Shown here in pieces: positions 8,923 to 20,648 of a stretch of 36,863 nucleotides of DNA. The stretch comes from Actinomycetota bacterium (GTDB taxonomy: Bacteria; Actinomycetota; Actinomycetes; Actinomycetales; Microbacteriaceae): contig SXMG01000156.1 in NCBI GenBank assembly GCA_005778835.1, positions 1 to 36,863 of the forward strand, written 5' to 3'. How positions within the stretch are numbered: the stretch's first letter is position 1; every line of letters begins with the position of its first letter. A model generated the notes under the pieces. It was not told the origin of the DNA and did no database searches. It saw nothing but the letters and a program-made list of their open reading frames with translations. Both the position numbers and the translations under genes were made by a program.

Positions 8923-10062
8923 TCAGGCCTGAGCGGCCTCGACGACAGCAAGCAACGGCGCGTAGAGCGGGTGCGAGGGCTCGATGCCCATGACGGTCTC
9001 GACGACCTCGGCGGCAGAACGTGAGCCGAGCACCTCGGCGAGCTCGACGCTCTCGGGGTCGTCGTCGACCCTGAACTGCAGGGCGGCGCCGATCGCGGCG
9101 AGCAGGGCTTTCGGCGTCGTGCCGAGCTCGGCGAGCGCCGCTGCCGGTGACAGGAAGCGCTCGTGCCGCGAGAGCTTGCGCAGCGGCTGTCGACCGACGC
9201 GCGTGACGGGGTCGGCGAGCGCGGCATTGGCGAAGCGGCTGAGCGCCGTCTCGCGGTACGCGTCTTGCACCTCGACCGTGAAGCCGTGGCGCGCGACGAG
9301 CAGCTGCGAGGTCTCGCGCAGTGCCGCCTCGACCGAGGCGTGCACGGCGGGGTCGGCGACGGCTTCGTGCACGAACTCGTGCCCGGCGGCGCGACCGAAG
9401 TAGGCGCACGTCGCGTGCCCCGTGTTGACGGTGAAGAGCTTGCGCTCGATCGAGGGGGCCAAGTCGTCGACGAAGTGCGCGCCCGGGATGCTCGGTATGG
9501 CATCTCCGAACGGCCCCACCTCGATCGCCCACTCGCAGAAAGGCTCGACGCGCACGTCGAGGCCGTCGGCCGGGTCGGCGGTCGGCACGATGCGGTCGAC
9601 GGCCGTGTTGGCGAAGATCGCCCGCTCGAGCGCTTCGGGGGCATCGGCCAGCAGCGTGGCGATCTCGGCACGGAGCAGGTCGGTGGCCTGGAGGGCGTTC
9701 TCGCAGGCCATGACGATCAGCGGCCCAGCATCCGTCGACCGCAGCCTCAGTGCGTCGGCGATGACCGGCGCGATGAAGCGCAGCACGGTCGGCCCGACCG
9801 CAGTGGTGGCGAAGTCGGCCGTCGCGACGGCGGCAACAGCCGCCTCACGGTCGGCCGCGCTGTCGATCGCGGTGAAGCCCGTGACCGCGTGCTCGCGGCC
9901 ACCCGGGCCGATCTCGATGACCTGATAGCTGTCGGCGGCCTGGATGGCCGCGATAAGGGGGGCGTTCACGTCGACGAAGACGAGGTCGTGCCCGGCCTCG
10001 TGCAGCAGCAGGCCGATGAAGCCGCGGCCGATGTTGCCGGCGCCGAAGTGAACGGCGGTCAT
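8923..10062 (-). CDS. mtlD: Mannitol-1-phosphate 5-dehydrogenase
   Basis: A 379-residue enzyme that oxidises mannitol 1-phosphate, the product of PTS uptake, to fructose 6-phosphate with NAD+. The N-terminal Rossmann motif is GAGNIGRG (8-15). The polyol-dehydrogenase signature includes Lys208, Asn213 and His216 in KLFTVNTGHATCAYFG. Length matches the bacterial MtlD family. It is the last gene of the mannitol operon; its ATG overlaps the stop of the IIA gene by 4 bp (ATGA), implying coupled translation. It converges on the lipoprotein gene with only 5 bp between stops and no obvious terminator. Confidence 0.96.
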   Translation of the reverse strand: MTAVHFGAGNIGRGFIGLLLHEAGHDLVFVDVNAPLIAAIQAADSYQVIEIGPGGREHAVTGFTAIDSAADREAAVAAVATADFATTAVGPTVLRFIAPVIADALRLRSTDAGPLIVMACENALQATDLLRAEIATLLADAPEALERAIFANTAVDRIVPTADPADGLDVRVEPFCEWAIEVGPFGDAIPSIPGAHFVDDLAPSIERKLFTVNTGHATCAYFGRAAGHEFVHEAVADPAVHASVEAALRETSQLLVARHGFTVEVQDAYRETALSRFANAALADPVTRVGRQPLRKLSRHERFLSPAAALAELGTTPKALLAAIGAALQFRVDDDPESVELAEVLGSRSAAEVVETVMGIEPSHPLYAPLLAVVEAAQA

Positions 10063-18433: not shown

Positions 18434-18868
18434 ATGCCGCTGACCGGAGAGTACGCGCCCAGCACGTCGCAGTGGGCCCGCGAGCAGGCCGAGCTCTACG
18501 AGCGCACCAATGGGGTCGAAGGCAATGACCTGCGCGGCCGACCGATCATCGTGCTCACGACGCTGGGTGCCAAGACGGGCAAGTTGCGCAAGACCGCGCT
18601 CATGCGCGTCGAGCACGAGGGCTCGTACGCGGTCATCGCCTCGATGGGCGGCGCGCCGAAGAACCCGGTCTGGCACCACAACCTGCTCGCGCAGTCGCTG
18701 TGCGAGCTGCACGACATGGCGTCGAAGCGCGATTACCGCGCCCGGCTCGTCGAGGGCGACGAACGTGCGACCTGGTGGGCGCGAGCGTGCGCGGTGTGGC
18801 CCGACTACGCGAACTATCAGCTGAAGACCGAGCGGCAGATTCCGGTCTGGGTGCTCGACCCGGTCTAG
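18434..18868 (+). CDS. Nitroreductase family deazaflavin-dependent oxidoreductase
   Basis: A 144-residue protein of the split-beta-barrel Ddn family, whose members use deazaflavin F420 (or related flavins) to reduce nitro compounds and quinones. The typical core is present: [20 protein letters not shown] (38-57), then [20 protein letters not shown], and AWWxR-like [16 protein letters not shown] near the C-terminus. TAGCCT (18422-18427) overlaps the stop codon of the tetR gene and lies 6 nt before the ATG, suggesting an independent leaderless transcript. Its stop overlaps the convergent sufU stop. The natural substrate and true cofactor are not shown here. Confidence 0.9.
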
Positions 18869-19323
18869 GCGCGGCGCTGCAGCAGGTCTTCGGCGGCGAC
18901 CCACGCGAGCATCGCGCACTTGACGCGCGCGACGAACTTCGAGACGCCGCTGAGGGCGGCCGCGTCGCCGAAGGTCTCTTCATCGAGCGGAATCGTGCCG
19001 CGCGACCGCAGCGCTTCGCGGAACTCGTGGATGAGCGCGGTGAACTCGTCGGGCGTCCACGACCAGCCGTCGTCGGTCGACTCTTTCGCGAGCGTCGACA
19101 GCAGTGAGGCGCTCGCTTGCGAGATGGAGCATCCGGAGCCCTCCCACGCGATACCGGTCACGCGCTCGCCCGTGGCATCCCACCGCAGAGCGAGCGTGAT
19201 CTCGTCGCCGCAGACCGGGTTGCGCTGGTGGCTCGTCTCGTCGCCCGCCTCGAGCCCGACGCCGTGCGGGTGCTTCGAGTGGTCCAGGATGATCTGCTGA
19301 TACAGCTGCTCGAGGCCGCTCAC
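18865..19323 (-). CDS. sufU: SufU-type Fe-S cluster assembly protein
   Basis: A 152-residue NifU-like protein of the SufU group, a zinc-containing sulfur acceptor that activates SufS in Gram-positive SUF systems. All metal ligands are present: Cys38 and Asp40 in NPVCGD, Cys65 in GSGCSIS and Cys136 in RVKCAMLAW, with the SufU-specific insertion between the second and third cysteines. Its start overlaps the sufS stop by 4 bp. The remaining SUF genes (sufB, sufC, sufD) are not in the window. Confidence 0.94.
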
Positions 19324-20648
19324 GACTGCTCTCCCTCACTGAGACCGAAGAACGGGCGGATGCTCGCGACGGCCTCGACCGCCCGATCGAGCTCGGCCTC
19401 GGTCGTGTAGAGCCCGGCGCTGAGGCGCAGGCTCGCCGTGACGCCGAAGCGCCGGTGCAGCGGCTGCGCGCAGTGGTGGCCGACGCGGGCCGCGATGCCG
19501 ACCTCGTCGAGCACTTGCCCCGCGTCGTGCGCGTGCACGCCGTCGACGACGATGCTCGCGAGAGCGACGCGCGGCTCGGGGCTGCCGGCGCCGAGCACCC
19601 GCACGTCGGGGACTGTCGAGAGACCCGCGAGCAGGCGCTCGCCGAGCACGTGCTCGGTCGCGGCGATGCGCTCCATTCTTACCTCCTGCACGAACCGGAT
19701 GGCCGCCGCGAGTCCGATGGCCTGCGCGATGCGCGGGGTGCCGGGCTCGAAACGCTGCGGCGAGGGCAGGTACTCGGCCTTCTCCATCGTGACGGTCGTG
19801 ATCATCGAGCCGCCGTAGAGGAACGGCGGCAGTGCGTCGAGCAGCGCGGCGCGGCCGTAGAGCACGCCGTTGCCGGGGGGGCCGTAGAGGTTGTGGCCGC
19901 TGAACACGGCGATGTCGACATCGAGCTCGCGCGGCCGCAGCGGCAGGTGCGGCGCCGATTGGCAGGCATCGAGCACGACGAGCGCGCCGGCCGCACGGGC
20001 GAGAGGCACGAGCACGTCGAGCGGTGTGACGGCACCCGTGACGTTCGAGACGTGCGTGATCGCGAGCACGCGCGTGCGCTCGCTGATGATGCTCGCCGCG
20101 GCGTCGAGGTCGAGCCCGCCGTGGTCGTGCACCGGAATGAATCGCAGCGTCGCACCCGTGCGGGCCGCGAGCTCTTGCCACGGAATGAGGTTGGCGTGGT
20201 GCTCGAGCTCGGTCACAACGATCTCGTCGCCCGGACCGAGCGCGAACTCGGCGGCTGCTGCACCCGCCCCGCGGCCGATGCTCGCAGTGCCGAGCGCGTA
20301 GGCGACGAGGTTGAGCGCCTCGGTGGCGTGGCTCGTGAAGACGATCTCGTGCTCGTCGACACCGAGGAAGGCGGCGACCGTCAGGCGAGCATCCTCGTAC
20401 AGCTCGGTCGCTTCGCCCGCGAGCGTGTGGGCGCCGCGGTGCACGGCCGCGTTCGACTCGCGGTAGAACGCGCTCTCCGCCTCGATGACGACGTCAGGCT
20501 TCTGCGCTGTCGCGGCCGTGTCGAGGTAGGTGAGGGGGTGCCCGTTGACCTCGCGCGACAGGATCGGGAAGCGCTGGCGCACCGCGTCGATCTCGCCGGC
20601 GCTCAGCGGCGCGGCGGTCGAGGGCGCGGCAGGCAGCACGTCGGTCAC
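19320..20648 (-). CDS. sufS: SufS-type cysteine desulfurase homologue lacking the PLP lysine
   Basis: A 442-residue class V aminotransferase-fold protein, clearly SufS-like. It has LEHHANLIPW (149-158), VLDACQSAPHLPL (225-237), the catalytic cysteine Cys393 in RVGHHCAQP and the substrate Arg408. The motif that normally reads SGHK, with Lys forming the Schiff base to PLP (E. coli Lys226), reads SGHNLYGPPGNG here: Asn253, codon AAC at 19892-19890. The usual GIG also reads GNG. A normal desulfurase cannot work without this lysine, so the protein may be inactive, may do something else, or carries a sequence error. The GTG start at 20648 is supported by TACGCT 6 nt before it. It is coupled to intact sufU by a 4-bp overlap. 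Confidence 0.9.
   Translation of the reverse strand: MTDVLPAAPSTAAPLSAGEIDAVRQRFPILSREVNGHPLTYLDTAATAQKPDVVIEAESAFYRESNAAVHRGAHTLAGEATELYEDARLTVAAFLGVDEHEIVFTSHATEALNLVAYALGTASIGRGAGAAAAEFALGPGDEIVVTELEHHANLIPWQELAARTGATLRFIPVHDHGGLDLDAAASIISERTRVLAITHVSNVTGAVTPLDVLVPLARAAGALVVLDACQSAPHLPLRPRELDVDIAVFSGHNLYGPPGNGVLYGRAALLDALPPFLYGGSMITTVTMEKAEYLPSPQRFEPGTPRIAQAIGLAAAIRFVQEVRMERIAATEHVLGERLLAGLSTVPDVRVLGAGSPEPRVALASIVVDGVHAHDAGQVLDEVGIAARVGHHCAQPLHRRFGVTASLRLSAGLYTTEAELDRAVEAVASIRPFFGLSEGEQS

Follow-up and report, generated by a model that had tools for sequence, protein, structure and literature searches.

Does a bacterium whose sufS gene reads as lacking the codon for the PLP-binding lysine really possess such a protein, or is its draft genome wrong at this place? 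The gene lies in the window, that is, the whole stretch of 36,863 nucleotides that was analysed, which is the complete contig C154 of a draft genome (G000; 168 contigs totalling 2,465,148 bases, with a completeness of 81%) presumably made from short reads. The codon concerned is located mid-contig, away from the contig ends. SufS together with SufU supplies sulphur to SufBCD. In the SufS cycle (PMC8300815, PMC11408855), the internal aldimine formed with the lysine gives way to an external aldimine with the cysteine substrate, and the persulphide formed on the SufS cysteine is passed to SufU. Without the lysine, this catalytic cycle should fail. A literature search for K226A found nothing.

The sequence-only reading of this DNA had reported AAC on the minus strand at 19892-19890, turning the SGHK motif into SGHN with Asn253. 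Rereading of the sequence confirmed this codon in a frame that was open throughout its 442 aa, and in HMMER alignments Asn253 stood opposite the SGHK lysine of three PDB chains (8odq, 9ddd and 1t3i). Cys393, Arg408, Asp227 and Gln230, described as intact, were all located, and His151 and His252 were intact as well. The gene was full length and in frame, from GTG at 20648 to TGA at 19320, and the GTG start of sufU overlapped the sufS stop codon, as had been claimed. The predicted protein scored 509.2 bits against the TIGR01979 profile (cut-off 475.1), and the downstream neighbour scored 118.9 bits against the TIGR01994 SufU profile (cut-off 92.5). Cysteines were found by eye in the NPVCGD, GSGCSIS and VKCAM motifs of the latter, and we take them to be metal/sulphur-site residues; a SufU-type sulphur acceptor is present in the genome, adjoining sufS. 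The window protein thus resembles the SufS family (TIGR01979; PDB 8odq, 9ddd, 5j8q and 1i29) in its full length, its catalytic Cys and Arg, its overlap with sufU, the retention of the Asp, Gln and His of the PLP site and a score above the family cut-off, whereas, as printed, it differs from the family by the missing PLP lysine and by T258P, I260N and G324R. An active enzyme has the PLP lysine, and the printed codon AAC encodes Asn; the view of the window protein as an active type II cysteine desulfurase rests on codon 253 being an error. The coordinates of the features are collected in the table.

Table. Features of the sufS-sufU locus in the window
Feature	Position	Strand	Details
sufS coding sequence	19320..20648	minus	442 aa; GTG start 20648, TGA stop 19320; TIGR01979, 509.2 bits
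Codon 253, AAC (Asn), PLP-lysine position	19890..19892	minus	sequence; PDB-chain alignment; relatives Lys 157/158, stop 1
Codon 258, CCC (Pro)	19875..19877	minus	relatives T 139, N 8, Y 5, S 4, M 1, A 1
Codon 260, AAC (Asn)	19869..19871	minus	relatives I 121, V 35, L 2
Codons 323-324, GTA AGA (Val-Arg), second odd patch	19677..19682	minus	residue 324 Gly in 156/158 relatives
Codon 44, ACG (Thr)	20517..20519	minus	Ser in 151/158 relatives, Thr in 3; variant also occurs elsewhere
Codon 393, catalytic Cys, intact	19470..19472	minus	sequence and relatives
Codon 408, substrate-carboxylate Arg, intact	19425..19427	minus	sequence and relatives
sufU	18865..19323	minus	overlaps sufS stop; TIGR01994, 118.9 bits

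The conservation of residue 253 was studied in relatives. Ninety-eight other genomes were searched, and 18 with weaker or no matches were left out; one of these was G020, in which the search of the genus genomes found no SufS-grade match. The genus set comprised 26 genomes, namely this draft and 25 others. A comparable SufS was present in 24 of the 25, with lysine (AAG) in 23 and TAG in the remaining one, G017. Outside the genus but inside the family or order, lysine was found in all 56 SufS sequences retrieved (sets of 6 and 50; in the latter, L218, missed by the motif search, was read by eye). In a collection of genome contigs, all 80 loci kept from at least 583 confirmed ones, a few of them from the genus, had lysine (79 assigned by motif, L058 by eye). 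The pooled set of 160 sequences contained 158 distinct texts, a few organisms being represented twice; of the 158, 157 had lysine and one had the stop. The absence of the lysine is not conserved among orthologues, as it would be in a pseudoenzyme: it was missing in one of the 158, through a stop. The pattern that the sequence-only reading had named as counting against a real Asn253, with lysine in all close relatives and this genome as a lone outlier, was nearly borne out, the single exception being a TAG stop and not Asn; among the 158 relatives, none had Asn at residue 253.

The sequence-only reading had also pointed to GNG in place of GIG (I260N), and indeed Asn was found at residue 260 in 0/158 relatives. 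Two further changes that it did not mention, T258P and G324R, were equally private: Pro at residue 258 and Arg at residue 324 (G 156, L 1, D 1) each occurred in 0/158 relatives. The deviation is more than the one base (AAC versus AAG) of codon 253: three conserved codons were altered within 21 nt. The window SufS was 81-90% identical to those of its 11 nearest relatives, the closest available being G012 (90% over SufS).

K253N, T258P and I260N were all nonsynonymous and all fell inside 21 nt. Polarisation by the relatives showed a transversion in each of these codons, in every case at a base that the relatives conserve. Relative to G012 alone, codon 258 differed at two bases and codon 257 carried one synonymous difference, and the patch at codons 253-260 is accordingly not purely a matter of three base changes. 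Transversions by themselves are unremarkable, because over the whole of sufS the window branch (10 transitions, 9 transversions) resembled the G012 branch (10 and 7). Clustering was examined against G012 with a test for at least three changed residues within eight codons with quiet flanks; 57 such stretches were detected in 114 genes, 18 of them on this contig, the codon 253 cluster included. What is odd is not clustering alone: three columns conserved across 158 relatives have changed jointly at the active-site loop.

The dN/dS ratio of sufS against G012 was 0.158, or 0.147 when codons 253, 258, 260, 323 and 324 were omitted, and the values for 231 other within-genus pairs ranged from 0.061 to 0.486, with 0.291 as the median. 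Where the outgroups agreed, the window SufS had 8 private residues and that of G012 had 5; K253N, T258P, I260N and G324R made up four of the 8. Outside the odd sites, sufS is thus under ordinary purifying selection, and because of this, the gene is neither a pseudogene of long standing nor a paralogue that has diverged; a lineage with a new function should look different as well. At codons 323-324, the rare codons GTA and AGA (13 and 10 among 7347 codons, two listed genes having been excluded for a frame problem) are not decisive. In SufU, 6 private residues were counted in the window and 2 in G012 where the outgroups agreed (one site upstream of the start was dropped); this excess is weak.

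A search for sufBCD and for a second sufS had also been proposed. The SufB/SufD core domain was present in 23 of the 26 genus genomes and missing from G000, G017 and G007, so that both lesion carriers, G000 and G017, were among the three without it. In G000, a 19 kb region of G012 mapped to the ends of contigs C78 (to 11159) and C80 (from 14001), and about 2.8 kb between them was missing from the assembly. The end of C78 carried the C-terminal 105 aa of SufC (99% identity to G012), and the N-terminal 187 aa of SufB (91% identity to G012) were encoded at the start of C80; by comparison with G012, sufD is expected inside the gap. Hence sufC and sufB fragments were recovered beside an assembly gap, whereas the SufB/SufD core domain was absent from the assembly. 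Because the sufC and sufB ends flank this gap of about 2.8 kb, the SUF pathway appears to be retained in G000, and its true loss was rejected as an explanation there. Contig C20 of G017 (4221 bases) also ended inside sufB.

Matches of G000, G017 and G007 to the suf region of G012 stopped on both sides of sufB-sufD-sufC. On G012:C3, sufB/sufD lay at about 105,000 and sufS at about 918,000, so these genes do not form one suf operon; on single contigs of G012, G004, G014 and G016, sufS-sufU was located about 0.75-0.9 Mb from sufB/sufD.

As for a second sufS, only one SufS-grade match was found in the draft (414.6 bits; the next match reached 214.7). A paralogue was rejected as the source of the window gene, given this single match and a window mostly collinear with G012. 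A NifS/IscS-like desulfurase was, on the other hand, encoded on contig C111 of the draft (L002:1447-2601), with its lysine intact in ISGHKLGAPKG. It belongs to the same superfamily as the window SufS and differs in its intact lysine; its best model was TIGR03402 (369.9 bits, below the cut-off of 530.75). The neighbouring gene was named by reading as presumably nadC-like.

The quality of the draft was assessed with 724 genes called in an 850 kb portion of G012, which were used against 392 kb of G000, window included. After exclusion of two genes by a frame check, 113 genes (35,099 codons) were compared between G000 and G012. An internal stop was found in one of the 113 genes, where TAC had become TAA at codon 55 of 303. 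This ORF (L243 in G000:C111, at about position 9203) was otherwise intact and 95% identical to G012; by its look, it presumably encodes an ECF-type sigma factor. Three other internal stops in G000 were set aside, two lying near protein ends (601 of 604 and 407 of 425) and one being a wrong-frame gene call. No internal stop was found in the 33 window genes compared with G012, nor in 73 gene-locus comparisons in near-complete relatives, a set that included G008, apparently itself a MAG.

A further irregularity was observed at the start of contig C80 (L223), inside sufB. Identity to G012 was 78% over positions 1-149 and 93% over the following 409 nt. Since the same 149 nt of G012 were 83-95% identical to six other species of the genus, the contig end is an outlier and the stretch is not simply variable. 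Judging from these identities, approximately one short read of another organism may have closed the contig. Local assembly errors supported by no read are described for MAGs in PMC7111523, which counts 13 in one curated 1.13 Mb genome.

Features of the sequence that might promote an error at codon 253 were also studied. The best 21-mer over this codon ranked 19th of 1177 for exact sharing between species of the genus, and the others ranked 49 to 145. Such shared 21-mers could tangle the assembly of mixed strains at codon 253, which is suggestive only. Known Illumina error motifs end in GG (PMC4787001); of the changed bases, that of codon 258 alone was preceded by a motif of this type, on the plus strand. 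On the minus strand, all three changed bases lay 2-6 nt after GGC, as do 20.9% of gene bases, a post hoc observation in which the three bases are not independent. A general error hotspot at codon 253 was unsupported outside the genus, given lysine in 56/56 family/order sequences and 80/80 contig-collection loci (from at least 583).

The one relative with a stop deserves separate consideration. In G017, a genus draft that is likewise 81% complete, TAG was located at 4207-4209 of L168 (G017:C170), which corresponds to window codon 19890-19892, and the sufS frame was intact apart from it. This TAG was the sole internal stop in 65 genes compared, on a contig that had been chosen for that stop. Independent random errors would only rarely strike the same codon in G000 and G017, and this coincidence fits the error reading poorly.

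Taken together, the Asn253 codon probably reflects a local mistake of the consensus or the assembly in this fragmented draft, and the gene would be an ordinary sufS of a Microcella species, the genus assignment being our inference. Of the three options of the sequence-only reading (non-catalytic partner of SufU, new activity, sequencing error), error is favoured, and nothing positive was found for the other two. It is favoured because lysine was present in 157/158 relatives, three private changes fell in 21 nt and dN/dS was ordinary elsewhere, and also because other defects, an internal stop and the chimera-like C80 end, were seen in this draft. At least three bases would then be wrong within some 21 nt (19870-19890), and presumably no read supports AAC. 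In the living organism, residue 253 is most likely lysine and SufS-SufU works normally. An organism with the lysine and a locally wrong draft is the simplest account, because the rest of sufS, sufU and the sufB/sufC remnants look maintained. An error could also have arisen by assembly chimerism with a different class-V aminotransferase gene, and the chimera-like end at C80 of the same draft gives this some plausibility; it is nevertheless extremely improbable, since the codons on either side match the genus consensus and a 181-base query against the draft yielded, beyond the gene itself, nothing stronger than two stretches of 29 and 41 bases.

A recent, real inactivation ranks next after a consensus error and is possible, albeit with a rather low probability. 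SufS would have been inactivated at the PLP lysine, and the C111 desulfurase or another sulphur source would compensate. The intact SGHK of that second desulfurase and the TAG at the identical codon of G017 are consistent with such a loss, and the 6 versus 2 private residues of SufU are a weak hint of relaxation. However, SufBCD, which SufS-SufU feeds in this family, appears to be retained, with a sufC fragment almost unchanged from G012, and sufS dN/dS is low; moreover, decay should hit a gene along its whole length, not mainly in conserved active-site columns. A functional SufS without the lysine is unlikely. That a lysine-less form has been maintained, either as a SufU-binding pseudoenzyme or with new chemistry on the SufS scaffold, would be compatible with the six other intact active-site residues (Cys393, Arg408, Asp227, Gln230, His151 and His252), and a natural precedent exists: in PMC12910592, Rv3778c of Mycobacterium tuberculosis is described as a likely non-catalytic protein without the PLP lysine and as only distant kin of desulfurases. 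The window protein, as printed, resembles Rv3778c in being desulfurase-related and without the lysine. It differs in its close orthology to SufS, with 81-90% identity to the 11 nearest relatives, and in its sufU partner, so the analogy is a loose one. Maintenance is very improbable, considering that Asn253 is absent from all relatives, that the incomplete draft has no second SufS-grade match to be regulated, that T258P and I260N strike the adjacent conserved loop and that 90% identity to G012 gives no sign of a diverged lineage.

It is conceivable, though very improbable, that some Microcella populations carry real PLP-lysine lesions (Asn with the altered loop here, amber in G017), and that SufS in them is a non-catalytic partner of SufU or has been repeatedly inactivated, with the NifS/IscS-like enzyme supplying sulphur. 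If true, the desulfurase of such a SUF system would be missing its essential cofactor anchor, contrary to a basic expectation of Fe-S assembly. As it stands, the locus illustrates that local errors of uncurated drafts may mimic a pseudoenzyme, and such errors can be exposed with the help of relatives, selection tests and other defects of the same draft.
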